Shown: piece after piece, positions 5,086-37,175 of the stretch
How the letters are laid out: each line of letters starts with the position of its first letter
How positions within the stretch are numbered: position 1 is the first letter of the stretch
Origin: Candidatus Staskawiczbacteria bacterium
GTDB lineage: Bacteria; Patescibacteriota; Minisyncoccia; Minisyncoccales; Staskawiczbacteraceae
Length of the DNA stretch: 40,241 nucleotides
Assembly: GCA_903835075.1 (NCBI GenBank)
Contig: CAILLM010000007.1
Coordinates: forward strand, 1 to 40,241
Reading direction: 5' to 3'
Position numbers and translations under genes: made by a program
Notes under the pieces: generated by a model
The model's database searches: none
Told to the model about the DNA's origin: nothing
What the model saw: only the letters and a program-made list of their open reading frames with translations

Positions 5086-6016
5086 GTTGTTTTTTGTTTT
5101 TAATAAATAATATTATTGTTGCCAATATTATAGCTGTTGATAAAACTATATAAAATAAAAACCAGGGATTATTTTTATTTGTTGCTTGGCTTGTGTTTAA
5201 ATTTTGGCCTGCCTGCGCAGGCAGGCTGATATCAGCCAACCCCTGAGTTGATAAGTCATTATTAACAGAATTTTTTATTTTTGACAAGCCCTTAGTGCTA
5301 GTTGTTGCCACGGTAATTATATTTTTTGTTTCTGGAGTTGGAGTTAGACTCCATTTCCAGCCAGAGTCAACTTTGCTGTAAGATTGTCCCAAAGGAGCTT
5401 TTGTATAATTTACAGAATCAACAATTTTTTTATCAGGCGTTAACAAGTTTATTCCATCAACATCATTGTTCAACATTATTTTTGTGTCCGGTCTTTTAAA
5501 TAACAAAAAACCATTAGCCATAAGTTTTGCGTCTTTTGGAATTGTAAAAGTTTTTGGAGTTCCGCTAATATCTTGAATTTGCCAACCAGTTAAATCAACT
5601 TCTATATTATTAGAATTGTACAACTCAACCCATTCATTTGTTTCATCAGCTCCTGAAGGGTTGGGGAGTAATTCGTTTATAATAATTCCCGATGGATAAG
5701 TTACCGCAGGCGTAGCGGGTTGGTCGTTTGTTTGGCTCGCCGTAGTTTCAACGGAGGTGGCGCACCCTACGCAGGCAACTCCCTGGTCTTTAATTTTTTG
5801 TAAAGTTTTAACCCCTATGCCCTTAACTCTATTTAAGTCGTCAACTGAAGAAAACGGTCTGGCGTCAATTATCCTTTGTGCCATAGCGGGCCCAATACCA
5901 GCAATGATATCTAATTGAGATAGTGTGGCGTTGTTTATATCAACCGTATCGGTGGCTGTAGCAATAGCTGGAAATAATATCGTTAATAATATTAATACGA
6001 AAAATAGGTTCCTCAT
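5072..6016 (-). CDS. Signal peptide + ComEA-type helix-hairpin-helix + lamin-tail (LTD) domain + C-terminal TM protein
   Basis: VDINNATLSQLDIIAGIGPAMAQRIIDARP (HhH); GIIINELLPNPSGADETNEWVELYNSN (LTD); C-term hydrophobic helix. Confidence 0.85.
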   Translation of the reverse strand: MRNLFFVLILLTILFPAIATATDTVDINNATLSQLDIIAGIGPAMAQRIIDARPFSSVDDLNRVKGIGVKTLQKIKDQGVACVGCATSVETTASQTNDQPATPAVTYPSGIIINELLPNPSGADETNEWVELYNSNNIEVDLTGWQIQDISGTPKTFTIPKDAKLMANGFLLFKRPDTKIMLNNDVDGINLLTPDKKIVDSVNYTKAPLGQSYSKVDSGWKWSLTPTPETKNIITVATTSTKGLSKIKNSVNNDLSTQGLADISLPAQAGQNLNTSQATNKNNPWFLFYIVLSTAIILATIILFIKNKKQHVRT

Positions 6017-11286: not shown

Positions 11287-11718
11287 ATGTTAATAAAGTA
11301 CACAACTACAAGCTATAAAGACACACAAAAATTTGGACAAGAGTTAGCCAAGGATATTCTAGGTTTTCCACTAAAAAAAATTGCAACTGTTTTGTGTTTG
11401 TATGGAGATTTAGGGGTAGGGAAAACAACTTTTTTGCAAGGTTTTGCAAAAGGCCTTGGCATAAAAGAAAAAATATTAAGCCCAACATATGTGGTAATGA
11501 GGCGTTTCGGTTACTTTTATCATTTTGATTGTTACAGATTAAAAGACGAAAAGGATATTTTGGAATTGGGCTGGGAAGAAATAATTTCCAATCCAAAAAA
11601 CATTGTAGCAGTTGAATGGCCCGAGCGTATAAAAAAAGTTTTACCAAAAACCGCAATTAAAATTGAATTTAAAACCCTTGAAGAAAATAAAAGGGAATTG
11701 ACAATGAAAAGATTATAG
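11287..11718 (+). CDS. tsaE: tRNA threonylcarbamoyladenosine biosynthesis ATPase TsaE
   Basis: LYGDLGVGKTTFLQGFAKGLGI, SPTYVVMRRF, HFDCYRL, AVEWPERI. Confidence 0.93.
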   Translation: MLIKYTTTSYKDTQKFGQELAKDILGFPLKKIATVLCLYGDLGVGKTTFLQGFAKGLGIKEKILSPTYVVMRRFGYFYHFDCYRLKDEKDILELGWEEIISNPKNIVAVEWPERIKKVLPKTAIKIEFKTLEENKRELTMKRL

Positions 11719-11753
11719 GGTAGTTTTAAGGGGCTCATTGAAAGGAGAAAATT

Positions 11754-12014
11754 ATGATAATATCCATAGGATTATTATTCCGATTGTTGAATATTGCAAA
11801 CCGCGAGGTTGATGAGAATATCGCTAAGAGCGCAGAGGCTCGGAGCAAAGTAATTGAAAATTATGGACAACTACTTGTTGTTAGAGATTTGATATCGCAC
11901 GCCTTGGAAAATTGCGATATGCTGATTGAACTTTCGCCCAGCAACCAAAGCCTTTTAGAACCTTTTATTGTCAGACATACGCAGGATGCGACGTCGCTGG
12001 AAGCTTCACGGTGA
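11754..12014 (+). CDS. Hypothetical ORFan (86 aa)
   Basis: Preceded by AAAGGAG; composition differs from neighbours; followed by terminator. Confidence 0.55.
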   Translation: MIISIGLLFRLLNIANREVDENIAKSAEARSKVIENYGQLLVVRDLISHALENCDMLIELSPSNQSLLEPFIVRHTQDATSLEASR

Positions 12015-12031
12015 TTTTAGTGATTTGTTTG

Positions 12032-12057
12032 CCCAAAAATTTGGGCTCTTTTTTTAT
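12032..12057 (+). terminator. Intrinsic terminator
   Basis: GCCC-AAAAATTT-GGGC-TCTTTTTTT. Confidence 0.8.
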
Positions 12058-12079
12058 AATTTAAGGGGTATTTTTTTGT

Positions 12080-12097
12080 GGTTGTCATATGACAACC
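12080..12097. repeat. 18-bp perfect palindrome
   Basis: GGTTGTCATATGACAACC. Confidence 0.95.
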
Positions 12098-12120
12098 TTC
12101 GCAATATTGATAGGGGGCAT

Positions 12121-12141
12121 TTTTTCACGTCACGTGAAAAA
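12121..12141. repeat. Perfect inverted repeat, 10-bp arms, 1-nt centre
   Basis: TTTTTCACGT-C-ACGTGAAAAA. Confidence 0.95.
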
Positions 12142-12157
12142 GTATAAACAAAATAAT

Positions 12158-12179
12158 CAGGTTAACCATGGTTAACCTG
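12158..12179. repeat. 22-bp perfect palindrome containing two GGTTAACC palindromes
   Basis: CAGGTTAACCATGGTTAACCTG. Confidence 0.95.
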
Positions 12180-12279
12180 CACGATTAATTTGCTTTAGTG
12201 CTAATATTATAATTTATGCGGTCGTCGTAAATATGATGCTGACTATTTTTGTTGTGTAAAAAATATGATAAAATGAAGA

Positions 12280-13158
12280 ATGGAAAAAAGATTAATTATT
12301 ATTGATTCTAATGCGTTGTTGCACAGGTCATTTCATGCGTTGCCACCTTTAATGACAAAGTCGGGGCAGGAGACAGGAGCTGTTTATGGTTATTTGCTTA
12401 CTTTGTTTAAGGCTATAACTGATTTAAAACCAGATTACGTTGTTGCTTGTTTTGATACGAAGTCGCCAACGTTTCGCCACGAAATGTATAAAGAGTACAA
12501 AGCACAAAGGCCGGTAACTCCCGGTGGAATTGTTTCGCAAATTCCTGTTACAAAAACAGTTGTTGAAGCTTTGGGGATTCCCATTTTTGCAGTTGAAGGA
12601 GTTGAGGCCGATGACTTAATCGCCACAATTTGTGCTAAAAATCCCGACTTGGAGATATTTATTGTTTCGGGAGATATGGATAACACGCAATTGGTTAATG
12701 AAAAAATAAAAGTTTACACGCTGGGAAAAGGAATAAAAGATACTGTTATTTATGACATAGCCAAGGTACAAGAAAGATTTGGGGTGAAGCCCGAGCAAAT
12801 GGTAGATTTCAAAGCTTTAACTGGTGACCCTTCAGATAACATTCCTGGAGTAGAGGGAATTGGTAAAAAAACAGCTGCTGAAATAATTCAAAAATATGGA
12901 AGCGTAAAAAACTTGTACGAAGAGCTGGCAACTGACACGGCAATTTTGAAGCCAAAAGTAAAAGAAGCCTTAAAGCTAAACAAAGAGTCGGCCTTAATGT
13001 CCCGTGACTTGGCTCAAATGAAGGATGACGTAGAAATAGAATTCAAAATTGAAGACTGTAATTTTGGGAAATTTGATGCTAAAAAAGTTGCAGAAGTTTT
13101 TAATAGTTTGGAGTTTTATAGCCTCATTGACCGTTTATCACAATTAGTCTACAATTAA
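12280..13158 (+). CDS. Stand-alone 5'-3' exonuclease (PolI N-terminal domain/FEN-like)
   Basis: LIIIDSNALLHRSFHALPP, VVACFDTKSPTFRHEMYKEYKAQRP, VEADDLIATI, LTGDPSDNIPGVEGIGKKTA; stops before a polymerase domain. Confidence 0.92.
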   Translation: MEKRLIIIDSNALLHRSFHALPPLMTKSGQETGAVYGYLLTLFKAITDLKPDYVVACFDTKSPTFRHEMYKEYKAQRPVTPGGIVSQIPVTKTVVEALGIPIFAVEGVEADDLIATICAKNPDLEIFIVSGDMDNTQLVNEKIKVYTLGKGIKDTVIYDIAKVQERFGVKPEQMVDFKALTGDPSDNIPGVEGIGKKTAAEIIQKYGSVKNLYEELATDTAILKPKVKEALKLNKESALMSRDLAQMKDDVEIEFKIEDCNFGKFDAKKVAEVFNSLEFYSLIDRLSQLVYN

Positions 13159-13190: not shown

Positions 13191-13790
13191 TTGATAAAAA
13201 ATATGTACAAAGTTTCATTTAAGGTGGCTTTACCCGTTATCCTTGCGGGAATGTTTGCAATAGTTGTTTTTATAGCATTAAACCCAGAAGGCTTGAGTCC
13301 AAGTTTTTATGTAATTTTATTTTTATTGTCTGTTTTTATCTTTTTTTATGGATTACATGTTGGACAAAGCGTTGCTCAGCCAATTGAAAAAATATTGAAA
13401 AGGGCTGTTGACTTAAGTAAGGGTGACACAAAAGCTAGGTTTTATTTAGAAACTAAAGATGAGTTTGGTGAGCTTGCTCAAATTTTCAATAAAATAGCAG
13501 ATGATATAGAAAATAGTCGTAATAAGGCAGAAAATTCAGAAAAATCAGTTAATATAAAAGTGAAAGCAAAAACTCAAGATTTGGAAGAAGTAATAAGCGC
13601 TTTAGAGCAAAAAGTTAAAAATAGAACAATTGAGGTGGAAAGATTAATGAAACAGCAAGGGTTAGTTACACCTGCTGAGCCCGAAGAAACTCAAGTTACA
13701 GAAATTCCAGCTAAACCAAAAACTCGTGTGTCTAAAAAAACGAGCACCGTAGTAGATGGTGACATTGACGCAACAGATGGTCAAACTTAA
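13191..13790 (+). CDS. Membrane protein with HAMP domain and coiled-coil
   Basis: Two hydrophobic helices, then AQPIEKILKRAVDLSKGDTKARFYLETKDEFGELAQIFNKIADDIE; no kinase or MCP domain. Confidence 0.75.
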   Translation: MIKNMYKVSFKVALPVILAGMFAIVVFIALNPEGLSPSFYVILFLLSVFIFFYGLHVGQSVAQPIEKILKRAVDLSKGDTKARFYLETKDEFGELAQIFNKIADDIENSRNKAENSEKSVNIKVKAKTQDLEEVISALEQKVKNRTIEVERLMKQQGLVTPAEPEETQVTEIPAKPKTRVSKKTSTVVDGDIDATDGQT

Positions 13791-13796
13791 AAAAAT

Positions 13797-14702
13797 ATGC
13801 CAGAATTACCAGAAGTAGAAACAACAGTAAAAGGTTTAAATGCAAAGGTCTGTAACAGGACCTTTGTTTCTGTTTGGTCAGACTGGTCCAAGTTAGTTAA
13901 AAAACCAAAAGATTTTAAAGATTTTGAGAGAGAAATAAAAAATAAAAAAATTAAAAAAATTTGGCGTCGTGCTAAAAATATTATTTTTGATTTATCTGGT
14001 GGATATTCTCTTTTAATTCATCAAAAAATGACAGGTCACATGTTGGTTGGGAAGTGGGTTATGCAAGACGGCCAGTGGAAGCCAGAAAAAGATGGCCCGC
14101 TTAACGATCCGTATAATAGGTTTTTGCATTTAGTTTTTTATTTTGATAATAAAGAAATGATGGCACTTTCTGATGCTAGAAAATTTGCAAAAGTTGAATT
14201 ATGGAAAACTAATGAGTTGTTAAATTCAAAAGAATTTATAAATTTAGGTCCAGAACCTTTAGAAGAAAGTTTTACTTTTGAAGAGTTTAAAAAAGTATTG
14301 TTGGGAAGCCCGCCTTCAGACCCAAAGGGTGCCCCGCTACGGCGAGGCAAGGTAAAACAGGTTTTAATGGTACCACAAATAATAGCAGGCATAGGGAATA
14401 TTTATGCTTCAGAAATTTTGTGGCAAGCAAAGGTGCACCCCGAAAAAAGTGTTGCCAAATTAAACACAAAAGAGTTAAAGTTGATTTATCAAGCTATAAA
14501 AAATGTTTTGGGAAAAGCAGTTAAATTAGAGGGAGACAGTTTTTCTGATTATAGAAAACCAGATGGCAATAAGGGAAATTTTCATGCGGAAAGAAAAGTT
14601 TATAATAGAGAGGGACAAGAATGCAAAAAGTGTAAGGTAAAAATAAAAAGAATAAAATTTGGTGGCAGAAGCACATTTTTTTGCCCAAATTGCCAAAAAT
14701 GA
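13797..14702 (+). CDS. mutM: Formamidopyrimidine-DNA glycosylase
   Basis: MPELPEVETTVKGL N-term; C-terminal zinc finger CKKCKVKIKRIKFGGRSTFFCPNCQK. Confidence 0.96.
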   Translation: MPELPEVETTVKGLNAKVCNRTFVSVWSDWSKLVKKPKDFKDFEREIKNKKIKKIWRRAKNIIFDLSGGYSLLIHQKMTGHMLVGKWVMQDGQWKPEKDGPLNDPYNRFLHLVFYFDNKEMMALSDARKFAKVELWKTNELLNSKEFINLGPEPLEESFTFEEFKKVLLGSPPSDPKGAPLRRGKVKQVLMVPQIIAGIGNIYASEILWQAKVHPEKSVAKLNTKELKLIYQAIKNVLGKAVKLEGDSFSDYRKPDGNKGNFHAERKVYNREGQECKKCKVKIKRIKFGGRSTFFCPNCQK

Positions 14703-14807
14703 TTTATTTTATTTACAACCTTCTATATATTTTTTATAAGATGGTTGCGAGCTGTTTTAGATCTCCCTCTGTGAGTGGTGTATATATTTTTATAAAAATT
14801 TAAACTA

Positions 14808-15791
14808 ATGATAGTCTTTTTATACGGACAAGATTCATATAGGTCAAAAAGAAAATTAGAAGAGATAATTTTAAGTTACAAAGAAAAGCACAAGTCTGGG
14901 CTTAATTTAATTTATGTGGATGCAGTTGATAAAAACTTTGTTGATTTTTATGGCAACTTAAAAATTAATTCAATGTTTGCTGAAAAAAAATTGATAATTA
15001 TACAAAATGTTTTTGTTAATAAAAAATTTCAGGAAGATTTTTTAGAAAATGTTAAAGAATTGGAAAATATAAAAGATATAGTTGTAATTTATGAAGATAT
15101 TGCCCCAGATCAAAGACTCAAAATTTTTAAATTATTACAAAAGCACGCCAAATGCCAAGAGTTTAATTATTTGTCTCCGGCAAATTTACGGAAATGGGTA
15201 ATGAATGAATTTTCCGCCCAAGGCAGACCAGCCTCGGGCTGGGAAAATAATAAATTAAAAATAAATAATGATGCCGTTGATTTGCTCATTAATTTTGTTG
15301 GGAGTGACTTGTGGAGAATGACAAATGAAATTGAAAAGCTGACAAACTATATTGCTGCTTGGGATAATAAAAAAGATTTGATTGTAGAAAAAAGAGATGT
15401 GGAATTATTGGTAAAGCCCAATATTGAAAATGATATTTTTAAAACTATTGATGCATTGGCTTCTAAAAATAAAAAATTAGCGTTGTCTTTGTTGCATAAA
15501 CACCTTGATAATGGAGACGCGCCTTTATATTTGCTTTCGATGATAGCTTATCAATTTAGGAATCTTTTAATTATCAAAGACTTGCAAGAATCACAGACGC
15601 CTTATGGATTTATTGCTAAAAAGTCAGGACTGCACCCATTTGTTGTTCAAAAAAGTGGTTATTTATGCAACCAATTTTCAATGGCTGAATTAAAAAAAAT
15701 ATACCAGAAAATTTTTCAAATAGATTCTGATATTAAGACTGGAAGGGCAGATTCAGAAACAGCCATAGATGTGTTGCTTTCAGAAATTTAA
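14808..15791 (+). CDS. holA: DNA polymerase III subunit delta
   Basis: FLYGQDSYRSKRKLEEII; C-terminal HolA-like features (LLSMIAYQFRNLLIIKDL, KTGRADSETAIDVLL). Confidence 0.85.
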   Translation: MIVFLYGQDSYRSKRKLEEIILSYKEKHKSGLNLIYVDAVDKNFVDFYGNLKINSMFAEKKLIIIQNVFVNKKFQEDFLENVKELENIKDIVVIYEDIAPDQRLKIFKLLQKHAKCQEFNYLSPANLRKWVMNEFSAQGRPASGWENNKLKINNDAVDLLINFVGSDLWRMTNEIEKLTNYIAAWDNKKDLIVEKRDVELLVKPNIENDIFKTIDALASKNKKLALSLLHKHLDNGDAPLYLLSMIAYQFRNLLIIKDLQESQTPYGFIAKKSGLHPFVVQKSGYLCNQFSMAELKKIYQKIFQIDSDIKTGRADSETAIDVLLSEI

Positions 15792-16224: not shown

Positions 16225-18189
16225 CTATTTGTTGTTTAGTTTTTCAATCAAGTCTCTAATTTCTGCTGCTCGCTCAAAGTCCATATTTTTTGCTGCAATT
16301 TTCATTTCTTTTTCCAAAAGTTTTTTGTCATTTACAACCCAAAGTTCTGCAGCAACATCTTCTTTCTTTGAGAAGCCCCAATCTCTAATATCAGAGATAA
16401 TTGTTGTTGGGTGGATATTATTCTTTTTATTATAGTCTTCTTGAATTTTCCTTCTGCGGTTAATTTCTGCTATGGCGTTTTTCATGGAAAGAGTTTCTTT
16501 ATCAGCATACAAAATAACGCGTCCATTTAAATGACGGGCGGCTCTTCCCATTGTTTGAATCAGTGTAGTTTCATTTCTTAAAAAACCTTCTTTGTCAGCA
16601 TCTAAAATTGCCACCAAAGAAACTTCGGGCAAATCTATGCCTTCTCTTAACAAATTAATTCCAACTAATACGTCAAATTCACCTTGTCTAAGATTTTTTA
16701 AAATTTCAGGCCTTTCCATTGTTTTAACTTCTGAGTGCAAATATTGCGTTTTAATTCCTCTTTCAGTTAAATAATCTGCGATTTCTTCAGCTAATTTTTT
16801 TGTTAAGGTGACCACAAGTATGCGGTGGTTTTTGTTGATTTCTTTTTTTATCTCTTCCATTAAATCTTTAATTTGGTTTTCTGTGGTTTTGATTTCAATT
16901 GATGGTTCTAAAAGTCCCGTGGGTCTTATCAATTGTTCGGCAATATTTTTTCCAGCCTTTTGTTTTTCAAAGAGGGCAGGGGTGGCAGAAACATAAATTG
17001 TTTGTTTTTGTCTGGCTTCAAATTCAGCAAAAGTCAATGGCCTATTGTCTATTGCTGAGGGTAGCCTAAAACCAAAATCAATTAAAGTTTGTTTTCTGAT
17101 TTTGTCTTGTACTGACATTGCACGGATTTGTGAAACAGAAATATGAGACTCATCAATAAATATTAAATTTTGGGCCTGCCCTGAGCTTGTCGAAGGGTTA
17201 AAATAGTTAAAATAATCAACTAAAGAAAACGGTGGGCTCCCGGGTTTTCTAAACTCCATGTGGCTAGAATAGTTTTCTATGCCCTGGCACCTGCCAGTTT
17301 CAGTTAGCATTTCTATATCATAATTTGTGCGTTGCTCAAGCCTTTCTGCTTCTAAATTTTTTCCTAATTTCTTTAATTTTATTAATTGGTCCTTTAACTC
17401 TAACTTTATATTTTCAATGGCTATTTTCAGTTTATCAGAAGGTGCAACCCAAAAAGTTGCGGGGAATAAAGTAATTTTTTTACCAGAAGATCTATATTTT
17501 TTATCTAAACCAGGAATTGATTCAGAAATATTTTCTATGCTATCTCCTAAAAATTCAATGCGAAATATTTTTTCTCCTGTGACAATGTAAATTTCAATTA
17601 AGTCTCCCCGCACTCGAAAAGTTCCTGGCTTGAAATCAATATCATTTCTCTGGTATTGTAATCCAGCTAACGAAAGTATAAAATTTTTCCTACTTATTTT
17701 TTGTTTTAATTTTACTTCTAAAGATGTCCCACCATAATTTTCTGGTGAGCCAATGTTGTAAATGCAAGAAACAGAAGCAACTACAATAACGTCTTTCCTG
17801 GAAGTTACATCTTGAACTGCAGCGTGACGTAGTCTATCAATTTCTTCATTTATTTTTGCATCTTTTTCTATGTAAGTATCTGAATGTGGGATGTAGGCCT
17901 CGGGTTGATAATAATCATAATAAGAAACAAAATAATGCACTGCGTTATTCGGAAAAAATTCTTTAAACTCCTGGTAAAGCTGAGCGGCCAATGTTTTATT
18001 GGGGCAAATAACAAGTGTTGGTTTTTGGGTTTCTTCTATGACGTTTGCCATTGTAAAGGTTTTTCCAGAACCAGTAACACCCAAAAGCACCTGGTCTTTA
18101 ACTCCATTTTTTAGAGCATCAACCAATTGTTTTATGGCTTTTGGCTGGTCGCCAGTGGGCTTAAATTTTGATTTTACTTGAAATTTCAT
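16225..18189 (-). CDS. uvrB: Excinuclease ABC subunit UvrB
   Basis: FKPTGDQPKAIKQLVDAL, LLGVTGSGKTFTMANVI, beta-hairpin YYDYYQPEAYIP, C-terminal UVR motif. Confidence 0.97.
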   Translation of the reverse strand: MKFQVKSKFKPTGDQPKAIKQLVDALKNGVKDQVLLGVTGSGKTFTMANVIEETQKPTLVICPNKTLAAQLYQEFKEFFPNNAVHYFVSYYDYYQPEAYIPHSDTYIEKDAKINEEIDRLRHAAVQDVTSRKDVIVVASVSCIYNIGSPENYGGTSLEVKLKQKISRKNFILSLAGLQYQRNDIDFKPGTFRVRGDLIEIYIVTGEKIFRIEFLGDSIENISESIPGLDKKYRSSGKKITLFPATFWVAPSDKLKIAIENIKLELKDQLIKLKKLGKNLEAERLEQRTNYDIEMLTETGRCQGIENYSSHMEFRKPGSPPFSLVDYFNYFNPSTSSGQAQNLIFIDESHISVSQIRAMSVQDKIRKQTLIDFGFRLPSAIDNRPLTFAEFEARQKQTIYVSATPALFEKQKAGKNIAEQLIRPTGLLEPSIEIKTTENQIKDLMEEIKKEINKNHRILVVTLTKKLAEEIADYLTERGIKTQYLHSEVKTMERPEILKNLRQGEFDVLVGINLLREGIDLPEVSLVAILDADKEGFLRNETTLIQTMGRAARHLNGRVILYADKETLSMKNAIAEINRRRKIQEDYNKKNNIHPTTIISDIRDWGFSKKEDVAAELWVVNDKKLLEKEMKIAAKNMDFERAAEIRDLIEKLNNK

Positions 18190-18223: not shown

Positions 18224-18811
18224 ATGATAGCATTTTTAGAGGGGAAAATTATATTAAAAAAGGAAAAGTTTGTAATTGTAGAAGTGGCCGGGGTGGGCTA
18301 TAAGGTTTTTGTGTCTGCTCAGACCCTGTTTAAATTACCCGCCTCCGCCGAGGCTTCGGCGGGCAAGCCAGAAATCGATCACGTAAAACTCTTTATATAC
18401 CATGAGACAAAAGAAGACAAGTCTGATTTATATGGTTTTTTAAATTATGAGGAGCAAGAATTTTTTGAAACTTTAATGGATATTAGGGGAGTTGGGCCAA
18501 GGTCTGCTTTAGACATTTCGGCATTGGGCTCATTAGATAAAATAAAAGACAGAATTTTAAAACAAGACGAAAAAATATTTGAAGGAATTCCCGGTATTGG
18601 TTCTAAGAAAGCAATGACAATAATTTTAGAATTAACTGGAAAAATAAATATTTTAGGTCAAAAGAAAACTTCGGGCGACGAAGCTGAAAGTGCATTAGTT
18701 CAACTCGGCTTTACAAAACAACAAGCCAAAGATGCATTAAGTCGAGTACCGAGTTCTGTAAAAGATTCTGAAGACCGCATAAAACAAGCATTAAAAAACC
18801 TAGGAAGATAA
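18224..18811 (+). CDS. ruvA: Holliday junction DNA helicase RuvA
   Basis: MIAFLEGKI..., VGYKVFVS, DIRGVGPRSALDI, GIPGIGSKKAMTIILEL, C-terminal UBA-like domain. Confidence 0.95.
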   Translation: MIAFLEGKIILKKEKFVIVEVAGVGYKVFVSAQTLFKLPASAEASAGKPEIDHVKLFIYHETKEDKSDLYGFLNYEEQEFFETLMDIRGVGPRSALDISALGSLDKIKDRILKQDEKIFEGIPGIGSKKAMTIILELTGKINILGQKKTSGDEAESALVQLGFTKQQAKDALSRVPSSVKDSEDRIKQALKNLGR

Positions 18812-30248: not shown

Positions 30249-30268
30249 AATGTTAGCTTTTTTACTGT

Positions 30269-30298
30269 GCCCGTCCGTAGCCTTGGCGAAGGAGGGTT
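30269..30298. repeat. GC-rich imperfect palindromic element upstream of smpB
   Basis: CCCGTCCGTAGCCTTGGCGAAGGAGGG in an AT-rich intergenic region. Confidence 0.6.
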
Positions 30299-30353
30299 TT
30301 CAGAAAAGATTTTCATGTTTCTATATATATCATGTTATCACAAAAATTCATTC

Positions 30354-30382
30354 TTGACAACAAAAAATTATTGTGCTAATTT
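30354..30382 (+). promoter_or_regulatory. Sigma70-like promoter upstream of ORFan 30474-30827
   Basis: TTGACA, 17-bp spacer, TAATTT. Confidence 0.6.
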
Positions 30383-30473
30383 AAGAGCACAAAATAGGTT
30401 TACGAACCTTCACAATCTAAAAGGCAACTATGCCTGAAAAATAGCACAACCAACATTACAGAAAACATAAATC

Positions 30474-30827
30474 ATGAAAGCAACCTTTGCTCATGTCAAA
30501 TTAGACTGCATGTCAGGTGAAGTCGAAATTACAAATGCCGTACGGCATGCTCTCAAGTACACCGATATCGTTATTGTAGCATTAAGTCTAAACGAGAGTA
30601 GGCAACAGGCCTGGACCGGTATTTTCGTCGGTAGCAATATTTTGGGAATTGCACTGGAGCGAAAGCAAAGTTCTTTTTACAAAAAAGATATTGCAGAGTC
30701 TAGGAGGCTTGGCGTAGTGGCATTTAATGCAGGGTACCGGGAAGACGGCGTGGTTGCAGGCTATTTTAGGAATATTTTTGCCGAAAGTCATGACGTGCTG
30801 GAACTGACTCCAGTTCCTACGGAATAA
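30474..30827 (+). CDS. Hypothetical ORFan (117 aa)
   Basis: Intact ORF with own promoter and terminator; composition distinct from neighbours. Confidence 0.6.
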   Translation: MKATFAHVKLDCMSGEVEITNAVRHALKYTDIVIVALSLNESRQQAWTGIFVGSNILGIALERKQSSFYKKDIAESRRLGVVAFNAGYREDGVVAGYFRNIFAESHDVLELTPVPTE

Positions 30828-30839
30828 TTGTTTTCATAC

Positions 30840-30879
30840 GCGGGTGGCGGACACTATGTTCGTTCACCCGATTTTTTTT
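30840..30879 (+). terminator. Intrinsic terminator
   Basis: CGGGTG-gc-GGAC-actat-GTTC-gtt-CACCCG then TTTTTTTT. Confidence 0.8.
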
Positions 30880-30954
30880 GCATTAAAAACCTTGCCCCAT
30901 AAGCTTATCGGGGTTTAATTTTCTCTTAATCTATGTTAAATTAAACAAATATAT

Positions 30955-34298: not shown

Positions 34299-37175
34299 AT
34301 GCCATATAATTATTCGGAAGAAGAAAATAAAATATTACAATTTTGGCAAGAAAATAAAATTTTCGAGAAGTCTTTAGAGCAAACCCTTCGGCCAGCTCAG
34401 GGCAGGCGAAAAGACTTTGTATTTTTTGATGGTCCTCCATTTGCTACTGGTGCTCCGCATTATGGCCACTTGCTTCAAAGCGTAATTAAAGATGCAATTC
34501 CCAGATATAAAACTATGAGGGGTTTTTATGTTGCCCGTCAATGGGGTTGGGATTGCCATGGTTTGCCAATTGAAAACATTGTTGAGAAAGAATTGGGCAC
34601 AAAATCTAAAAAAGATATTGTAGCAATGGGAGTTAAAAAATTTAATGACTTGTGTCGAGATAAAATTTTTACTTTTATAAATGAGTGGGAAGAAGTCATC
34701 CCTCGTTTTGGAAGGTGGGCAGATATGGAAAAACCATACAAAACAATGGATTTTGAGTATATGCAGTCAGAATGGTGGGCATTTAAAGAATTGTATAAAA
34801 AGGGGCTTATATATGAAGATTACAGGTCTATGCACATTTGCCCAAGGTGCGAAACAACATTAAGCCAGGGAGAAGTTGCCGAGGGTTATAAAGATATTAA
34901 AGATTTGTCAGCTACAGCAAGGTTTGAAATAATTGGTGAGCCAAACTCTTATTTTTTGGCATGGACAACAACTCCATGGACTTTGATTGGAAATGCTGCC
35001 TTGGCGGTTGGTGCAGATATAAATTATATAAAAGCTAAAATTGGTGAAGATGTTTTTGTTGTAGCAGAAAGTAGGGCTAGTGAGGTTTTTGGTGATAAGA
35101 CGTATGAAATTTTAGAAACGCTAAATGGGAAAAATTTGGTTGGGCTAGAATACAAACCTATATTTGATTATTACTCTAAAGACGCAGGTTTAAAAAATAA
35201 AGAAAATGGTTGGAAAGTTTATGCAGGTGACTTTGTAAATACAGAAGATGGAACAGGAATTGTGCACATAGCACCTGCTTTTGGAGCAGATGATATGGCT
35301 CTTGGCAAAAAAGAAAACTTGCCATTTATTCAGCATGTAAAAATGGATGGCACAATGACGCAAGAAAATGGAGAATTTTCTGGTCTTGATCTTAAGCCTC
35401 GCGCAAAAAACAAGCCTGAAGAAATTCGTGAAGCAGATTTAACCATTGTTCGTTATTTAGAAGAAAATGGATTGTTGTTTAAATACGATAAATATGAGCA
35501 CTCTTATCCTCATTGTTGGAGGTGTGATACTGCATTATTAAATTATGCTACCAGCTCTTGGTTTGTTGCAGTAGAAAAAATAAAACCTGAATTATTAAAA
35601 AATGCTAAAAATATCAATTGGTCGCCTGCCCACATAAAAGAGGGGAGGTTCGGTCAATGGCTGGTGGGAGCACGGGATTGGTCAATTTCGCGCCAGCGTT
35701 TTTGGGCAAATACAATTCCCGTTTGGAGATGTGACAAATGTAAAAAAGAAATTGTTTTTGCCTCAGCTAACGAGCTTGAAAAAGCTAGTGGAATAAAAGT
35801 TAATGACTTGCATAAAGATGTAGTTGATGAAGTTATTTTTAATTGTAGTTGTGGCGGTAAAATGGCTAGGGTCCCAGATGTATTAGACACTTGGTTCGAT
35901 TCTGGGTCTGTACCTTTTGCATCACTTCATTACCCAGTAGAAAATAAAAATAATTTAAAAAAGCGTTTACCAGCAGATTTTATTGGTGAAGCTCAAGATC
36001 AAACTAGGGCATGGTTTTATTACCAGCATGTTTTGGTGGGAGCATTGTTTGGTACAGAAGCTTTCAAAAATTGTATTGTAACAGGAATTGTGTTGGCAGA
36101 AGACGGTAAAAAAATGTCTAAAAAATTAAAGAACTATCCTGATCCAACAGCTGTTATGGAAAAATATGGAGCAGATGCAATGCGTTTTTATATGTTAAAT
36201 TCTCCAGTAGTTCAGGCTGAAAATTTATCTTTTTCTGAAAAAGGAGTTGACGAAATAGCTAAGAAAAATATAAGCAGATTATATAATGTTTTAGCTTTTT
36301 ATGAATTATATGCCGATGGCACAGTTGCTAGCGACAAAAGTAATAATATTCTTGATAAATGGATTCTTTCACGCCTTGGAGAATTAATAAAAATTTCAAC
36401 TGATGGTTATGAGTCATATAAGGTTGACATTGCTGTGCGACCTATTATAGATTTTATAGATGACTTTTCAGCTTGGTATTTAAGGAGAAGTAGAGAAAGG
36501 TTTAAAGAAGATGATAATGATAAGAAAGATGCTTTGGCGACTTTAAGATATGTTTTGCATGTAACTTCAAAAATCATAGCTCCATGTATGCCATTTTTTG
36601 CAGAATATATTTTTCAAAAAACGCGTGACCCTAAAAACAGAGAAAGCGTTCACTTAGAAGATTGGCCGAGTCTAATGAAATCAGACGTTGATTTAATTAT
36701 AGAGATGTCAGAGGCCAGAGAAATAGTGAACTTAGCCTTAGCAGAGCGCTCAAATGTAGGAATAAAAGTCAAACAACCCCTTGCCCTTCTTAGAGTAAAA
36801 AATATTAATTCTAAAATTAAAAATAACAAAGAATTACTAGAGGTGATAAAGGCGGAAACAAATATTAAAAATGTTATTTTTGATGCAACGATTGTTAACG
36901 AAGTAGAGCTGGACATCAATATAACACCGGAGTTAGAAGAGGAGTGGCTGATTAGAGAAATAGTAAGGGCTGTTCAAGAAGAGAGAAAAGAACAAAAATT
37001 AATTCCACAGGATAAAATTTCTGTTAAGCTAGTTGTGCCCCAGAAAGAAAAATTAATAATAGAGAAAAACAGAGGTCTTTTGTTAAAAGAGTTTAGGGCA
37101 ACAGAAATTTTTGTAGAAGAATCTGTGGCATCTGATGGTCAAAAATATTTAATAAAAATTAGTGTTGTAAAGTAA
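34299..37175 (+). CDS. ileS: Isoleucyl-tRNA synthetase
   Basis: FFDGPPFATGAPHYGHLLQSVIKD (HIGH region), KKMSKKLKNYPDP (KMSKS). Confidence 0.97.
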   Translation: MPYNYSEEENKILQFWQENKIFEKSLEQTLRPAQGRRKDFVFFDGPPFATGAPHYGHLLQSVIKDAIPRYKTMRGFYVARQWGWDCHGLPIENIVEKELGTKSKKDIVAMGVKKFNDLCRDKIFTFINEWEEVIPRFGRWADMEKPYKTMDFEYMQSEWWAFKELYKKGLIYEDYRSMHICPRCETTLSQGEVAEGYKDIKDLSATARFEIIGEPNSYFLAWTTTPWTLIGNAALAVGADINYIKAKIGEDVFVVAESRASEVFGDKTYEILETLNGKNLVGLEYKPIFDYYSKDAGLKNKENGWKVYAGDFVNTEDGTGIVHIAPAFGADDMALGKKENLPFIQHVKMDGTMTQENGEFSGLDLKPRAKNKPEEIREADLTIVRYLEENGLLFKYDKYEHSYPHCWRCDTALLNYATSSWFVAVEKIKPELLKNAKNINWSPAHIKEGRFGQWLVGARDWSISRQRFWANTIPVWRCDKCKKEIVFASANELEKASGIKVNDLHKDVVDEVIFNCSCGGKMARVPDVLDTWFDSGSVPFASLHYPVENKNNLKKRLPADFIGEAQDQTRAWFYYQHVLVGALFGTEAFKNCIVTGIVLAEDGKKMSKKLKNYPDPTAVMEKYGADAMRFYMLNSPVVQAENLSFSEKGVDEIAKKNISRLYNVLAFYELYADGTVASDKSNNILDKWILSRLGELIKISTDGYESYKVDIAVRPIIDFIDDFSAWYLRRSRERFKEDDNDKKDALATLRYVLHVTSKIIAPCMPFFAEYIFQKTRDPKNRESVHLEDWPSLMKSDVDLIIEMSEAREIVNLALAERSNVGIKVKQPLALLRVKNINSKIKNNKELLEVIKAETNIKNVIFDATIVNEVELDINITPELEEEWLIREIVRAVQEERKEQKLIPQDKISVKLVVPQKEKLIIEKNRGLLLKEFRATEIFVEESVASDGQKYLIKISVVK

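Follow-up and report, generated by a model that had tools for sequence, protein, structure and literature searches.

Candidate operators for small DNA-binding regulators in a palindrome cluster upstream of a 5' nuclease gene of Candidatus Staskawiczbacteria

What are three perfect palindromes doing within 100 bp of one another, between the terminator of one gene and the start of the next? The question arises in Candidatus Staskawiczbacteria, a member of the Patescibacteria, in which gene regulation has been little studied. The genome (G000) is a MAG assembly with mechanical ORF calls, 794,466 bases in 11 contigs; the window, meaning the whole stretch of 40,241 nucleotides analysed here, is the entire contig C7. 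A sequence-only reading had described the palindromes (P1, P2 and P3) as unrelated and had proposed a multi-regulator operator, a chromosome-organisation site or a cruciform-forming locus. We consider it likely that P1 to P3 are operators for small DNA-binding regulators in the regulatory region of the 5' nuclease gene, with both the binding and the position of the promoter predicted from sequence.

The palindrome cluster and its surroundings

The features of the locus, in window coordinates, are as follows.

11287–11718, plus strand: TsaE-like gene, named by sequence motifs and not by family search
11719–12257, no strand: lineage-specific insertion of ~540 bp that contains the ORFan and the three palindromes; its right boundary is approximate
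11754–12014, plus strand: ORFan of 86 aa, without Pfam or NCBIfam match
12031–12055, plus strand: intrinsic terminator of the upstream ORFan, GCCCAAAAATTTGGGC plus a T-run
12080–12097, no strand: P1, GGTTGTCATATGACAACC; family A palindrome of GTTGTC flavour, predicted site of Gln23-type HTH_17 proteins
12121–12141, no strand: P2, TTTTTCACGT-C-ACGTGAAAAA; family B palindrome, predicted site of a PaaX-like protein
12143–12148, plus strand: TATAAA beside P2, a possible -10 element or a remnant of the outer arms of P2
12158–12179, no strand: P3, CAGGTTAACCATGGTTAACCTG; family A palindrome of GTTAAC flavour, predicted site of Ile23-type HTH_17 proteins
12280–13158, plus strand: 5'-3' exonuclease (PolA-type 5' nuclease; Pfam PF02739/PF01367), presumed first gene of the controlled unit
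13191–15791, plus strand: downstream co-directional genes for a HAMP-domain protein, an Fpg/MutM-like protein and a DNA polymerase III delta-like protein (the last two by sequence inspection)

All three palindromes are perfect, with centres of 0, 1 and 0 nt, and they lie where they had been placed, between the ORFan terminator and the nuclease gene, 101–200 bp upstream of the nuclease start. Four palindromes in the 40-kb window have arms of 9 or more and a gap of 0–1, against ~1.25 expected from dinucleotide shuffles; the whole 794-kb genome holds 63, and only this locus has three within 100 bp. The one other close pair in the genome, an AT repeat aside, combines a P3-like palindrome with P2 (C8:79816/79866). 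Random abundance, which would have spoken against a specific role, is not seen: P1 is unique in the genome, the P2 core has two exact copies with the next best places at 3 mismatches, and the P3 18-mer has four exact copies and one with 2 mismatches—its reversed control has none.

The cluster sits inside an insertion that most close relatives do not have, and this counts against the operator reading. In five relatives (G025, G032, G033, G034 and G035) there is no insertion and tsaE ends within ~25 bp of the nuclease start; in G027, G029, G030 and G031 the junction is occupied by other sequence. The ORFs at the G030 junction are different, yet CAGGTTGTCGCGTGACAACATG and TTTTTCACGCCACGTGAAAAAGTATAAA precede the nuclease there with order kept and spacing similar; in G007, from another genus, a GTTGTC-type site precedes comM and then the nuclease. 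These matches, noticed after the fact, make a regulatory link to the nuclease plausible. Conservation, by which the sequence-only reading had meant its idea to be judged, is mixed: most close relatives lack the exact site and the P1/P2-like pair is found only in G030, but the motifs recur at other genes in these genomes, so that as a family they are not random and not without conservation. As a separate observation, the tsaE-nuclease (11719–12257) and smpB-UMP kinase (30249–30954) junctions between conserved genes hold ORFan inserts that differ between relatives, as if they were insertion hot spots.

A scan of the plus strand at the cluster for the sigma-70 promoter consensus found none. The TATAAA beside P2 was considered as a firm -10 element. 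This view was downgraded since the P2-type palindromes of G030 run on into similar letters; at C8:79866 and at the G030 nuclease locus, GTATAA comes after the P2-type site too.

Two site families and the regulator genes beside them

The palindromes are not three unrelated sequences as had been supposed—the half-site GGTTnnC is common to P1 and P3, which form one family (A), and P2 falls in a second (B). Family A has 13 sites in the genome, and its reversed control pattern has none. In the genome-wide list of palindromes its outer half-site is (TCA)GGTT, and the inner part varies and stays symmetric (AACCATGGTT, ACCATATGGT, GCCCTAGGGC, AACATATGTT, GTCATATGAC). Family B is T-rich, with a T-run in arm 1 and an A-run in arm 2 (TTTTTCACGT-S-ACGTGAAAAA; AACTTTTTTGCCACGTGGCAAAAAAGTT; GTAGTTTTTTGGCTCGAGCCAAAAAACTAC), and each palindrome flavour has 1–5 copies in the genome. 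The two families occur together in the window (C7), at C8:79816–79886 and at C4:127633–127683; mixed clusters are also seen upstream of two other genes, one for a UMP-kinase-like protein in G030 (L143) and one for a small membrane protein in G028 (L136). Across the family's 36 genomes, it is chiefly genera g1, g7 and g9 that are rich in family A sites, and the closer HTH_17 homologues are found there too.

A search for cognate regulators had been suggested and proved productive: genes for HTH_17 proteins (for the family of P1 and P3) and for PaaX-like proteins (for that of P2) are flanked by matching sites. The window's genome has exactly three HTH_17 genes of the subfamily, each adjoining its own family A flavour.

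C5:12455–12640: HTH_17 gene with AACCATGGTT on both sides, the GTTAAC flavour as in P3
C6: HTH_17 gene with ACCATATGGT on both sides
C9: HTH_17 gene with GCCCTAGGGC

P3 has its matching regulator in this genome, the 61-aa C5 protein; the same flavour flanks the HTH_17 gene of G034 (L061). The GTTGTC flavour of P1 flanks HTH_17 genes in G021 (L065) and G030 (L076), and the sole Gln23 protein of the window's genome (C9) pairs with GTTGCC, not with GTTGTC. The best-matching regulators for both P1 and P2 are found in the sister genome G030 and are absent from the window's assembly, which is 98% complete. Homologues of HTH_17 are present in 16 of the 36 genomes, and most of the named relatives that carry the family belong to Candidatus Staskawiczbacteria. 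A palindrome lies up to ~100 bp upstream of most homologues, and many have one downstream too, with a flavour that differs from protein to protein. One HTH gene of G021 has two different sites around it, of which the downstream one precedes a zinc-ribbon gene, as expected of separate operators.

By profile the C6 protein scores 29.6 bits against the HTH_17 Pfam cut-off of 27; the C5 protein scores 25 bits, below that cut-off, and 28.9 bits against TIGR01764 excise (cut-off 28.8). The AlphaFold model of an HTH_17 protein (pLDDT 83) has a winged-HTH fold with residues 22–31 as the recognition helix, and its nearest solved folds are RacA and MerR-type regulator DNA complexes and Xis, at E values of only 0.03 and weaker. 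Searched against the sequences in the PDB, the HTH protein had no meaningful relative, the matches being mainly designed TIM barrels.

Family B sites accompany PaaX-like genes in a similar manner: 15 of the 16 PaaX-like loci in the family have a palindrome on at least one side near the gene, most on both, with a locus-specific sequence. In the window's genome the PaaX-like genes at C3:25593 and C8:46609 are each bracketed by a pair of copies of the family B site particular to that gene, whereas four more distant paralogues are not flanked by such pairs. Near-identical P2-type sites flank PaaX-like genes in G027 (C9, L129) and G030 (C10, L130), not in the window's genome, where 30 bp separate the orthologous neighbours (C4:193233 and C4:194991) and no PaaX gene intervenes, so that the nearest cognate of P2 is missing. 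The PaaX-like proteins are ~180 aa long and score well over the Pfam cut-off for the PaaX_M Cas2-like domain; the full-length PaaX model gives 26.5 bits, far below its cut-off of 264.55. A PaaX-type palindrome, GTAGTTTTTTGGCTCGAGCCAAAAAACTAC in a longer form, lies 32 bp upstream of a GroEL-like gene (G000:C8:11660–11697, L026), which suggests control of a chaperonin by a PaaX-like regulator.

Family A sites are also enriched before genes other than those of the regulators. In the window's genome, 5 of 12 zinc-ribbon genes have such a site in the 100 bp upstream, compared with 4 of the 820 other genes (p 3e-8). This zinc-ribbon family (CQNCK..F) is without a Pfam match and has 12 copies here and 2–19 in g1 genomes. 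A multicopy family of cysteine-rich ~570-aa proteins (CQNCKKDF...), numbering 12 here and as many as 19 in relatives and likewise without a Pfam match, is encoded at G000:C4:46276–53164, at C2:58012–61529 and on C5 and C6, often in tandem, and some of its genes have a family A site in front of them.

Covariation of recognition helix and half-site

The flavour of a family A site follows the recognition helix of the neighbouring protein. Across 32 HTH_17/site pairs from related Patescibacteria, Gln23 goes with GTTG in 8 of 8 cases against 0 of 24 others (table 8/0/0/24, p 9.5e-8), and Tyr27 goes with an altered outer pair, [TC]C, in 5 of 5 against 0 of 27 (table 5/0/0/27, p 5e-6); both residues fall within helix 22–31 of the AlphaFold model. 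The half-sites were typed in manually, in most cases from the upstream site; for L070 and L087 the downstream one was used. The pairings are listed below.

Helix ISRISVFKR: half-site GTTAAC
Helix IS[KR]QSVLKR: half-site GTTG[TC]C
Helix ISKVSVLKR: half-site GTTA[CT]C
Helix ISR[VM]AVLKR: half-site GTTATC
Helix VSRKT[VI]F: half-site GGTAAC
Helix [IV]SR[IV]S[VL]FYR: half-site CTTAAC

One exception is L260, which has ISRVAVFKK with GTTAAC, while L257, with an identical helix, has GTTATC. A partial Mantel test of helix against site, given the rest of the protein, yields 0.713 (p 0.0002), a value from which shared ancestry is not fully removed, being controlled solely via the rest-of-protein distance; the rest of the protein against site, given the helix, yields -0.20. 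Site sequence is specifically paired with the HTH_17 recognition helix, and we read the sites as predicted operators whose binding is deduced from this pairing.

A proposed control region and its alternatives

Among the options first put forward, the multi-regulator operator is favoured by the two regulator families with cognate sites and by the mixed clusters in G028 and G030, whereas the chromosome-organisation and cruciform options gain no support. P1 and P3 would be bound by two proteins of unlike specificity from a 60-aa winged-HTH family (HTH_17; excisionase/MerR-like) and P2 by a PaaX-like regulator. Each regulator most likely binds an operator upstream of its own gene, usually also a second copy just behind it, and would control further genes with a matching site, notably the multicopy zinc-ribbon family; the three sites after the ORFan terminator probably act together as a region through which several inputs control the nuclease gene. 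The sites, their pairing with genes, the covariation and the enrichment are results of computation; dimer binding, autoregulation, repression as the default, the promoter position and the control of zinc-ribbon and nuclease genes are all what we infer. Some downstream sites lie between convergent genes (that of the C5 HTH gene here; that of PaaX in G027) and are not accounted for by promoter operators. Our guess is that repression might act through looping between the pair of sites that flank a regulator gene, which would explain sites in convergent regions.

We found no account of these HTH_17 and PaaX-like regulators or their sites in the searchable literature; however, several known systems are alike in part. 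Autoregulated winged-HTH repressors such as the GntR subfamilies (PMC4494728) share the genomic pairing of regulator and site and the correlation of recognition residues with motif positions; the HTH_17 proteins differ in being only ~60 aa long, without an effector domain and multiparalogous, with many flavours and often two-sided sites. BldC/RacA/MerR-like small winged-HTH proteins (PMC5859096) resemble them in size, predicted fold and the absence of an effector domain, but BldC binds direct repeats as head-to-tail multimers (PMC5859096), and family A sites are perfect inverted repeats. The PaaX-like proteins share the PaaX_M Cas2-like domain with the PaaX repressor family, and depart from it in their ~180-aa length, in scores far below the full-length model cut-off and in their long T-rich palindromes.

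The strongest competitor, still an unlikely one, is that small mobile cassettes account for the palindromes, as their ends or as solo copies: a flanked gene spreads and leaves solo palindromes behind. Such an arrangement of a gene between palindromes plus solo copies is known from REP sequences and RAYT genes, or REPtrons (PMC3733652). HTH_17 and PaaX-like genes are indeed often flanked on both sides, like the Y1-transposase gene of the window's genome; the window cluster lies within an insertion, and the PaaX unit of G027 and G030 is absent between the orthologous genes here. However, the units differ from REPtrons in lacking a tyrosine transposase and in their low copy number and symmetric sites—no REP-associated tyrosine transposase was found next to family A/B sites, the paired genes being HTH_17 or PaaX-like, and neither protein has a known transposase domain. 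There are few copies per flavour (1–5), sites are placed just upstream of particular gene families, the flavour can differ between the two sites of one HTH gene, the palindromes do not mark the limits of the indel at the PaaX locus, and a search of phage and plasmid records with the C5 HTH protein found no homologue. A variant that we hold to be similarly improbable is that these genes together with their palindromes act as regulatory cassettes, each moving as a unit and planting its own operators with no REP-type transposase; if so, the regulons of reduced genomes would be rewired as sites for new specificities spread. The Y1-transposase (RAYT-like) gene itself (C8:99542; G000:C8:99505–100352, L030/L031) has a third, GGTGGGACGTC-type palindrome on both sides, an apparent REPtron in a patescibacterium and an ordinary REP-like contrast case.

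A function at the RNA level, with hairpins that serve as terminators, translation blockers or processing sites, is a good deal less probable. The claim that the palindromes make poor hairpins was wrong, as P1, P2 and P3 fold at -9.0, -6.9 and -10.4 kcal/mol (z ~ -3.3 to -3.7); P3 is terminator-like on the minus strand, and the end of several family A sites is no more than ~25 bp from a start codon. Against this, the sequence of the sites varies in step with the DNA-reading helix of the proteins encoded alongside, a relation not expected from an RNA role. Symmetric centres were dropped as an argument against hairpins, the central 4 bases being asymmetric in several relatives.

We give still less weight to a chromosome-organisation or segregation site with an HTH_17 protein acting like RacA: the RacA-DNA complex is the closest solved fold, but the sites are few and near gene starts, and several paralogues have different specificities. 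SOS boxes of a LexA repressor over a repair operon can largely be dismissed, for although the downstream genes resemble DNA repair and replication genes, a search for the LexA DNA-binding domain found none in the window's genome and was positive in 10 of 14 control genomes.

If the operator reading is true, it would offer a predictable protein-DNA code readable from sequence alone, by which regulators could be assigned to sites in hard-to-grow organisms, along with a testable regulon of a multicopy zinc-ribbon family of unknown function and DNA repair genes.

A further observation, at window positions 5207–5226; 18224–18811; 16225–18189, minus strand; and 34299–37175, concerns a different class of palindrome and a set of peptide inserts. 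The palindromes, GC-rich and of CCTGCCTGCCGGCAGGCAGG type, occur on many contigs and are often intragenic. The peptide inserts SAEASAGKP, STSSGQAQ and LRPAQGR in RuvA-, UvrB- and IleRS-like proteins look like in-frame insertions of palindromic elements, by analogy with the Rickettsia palindromic elements.
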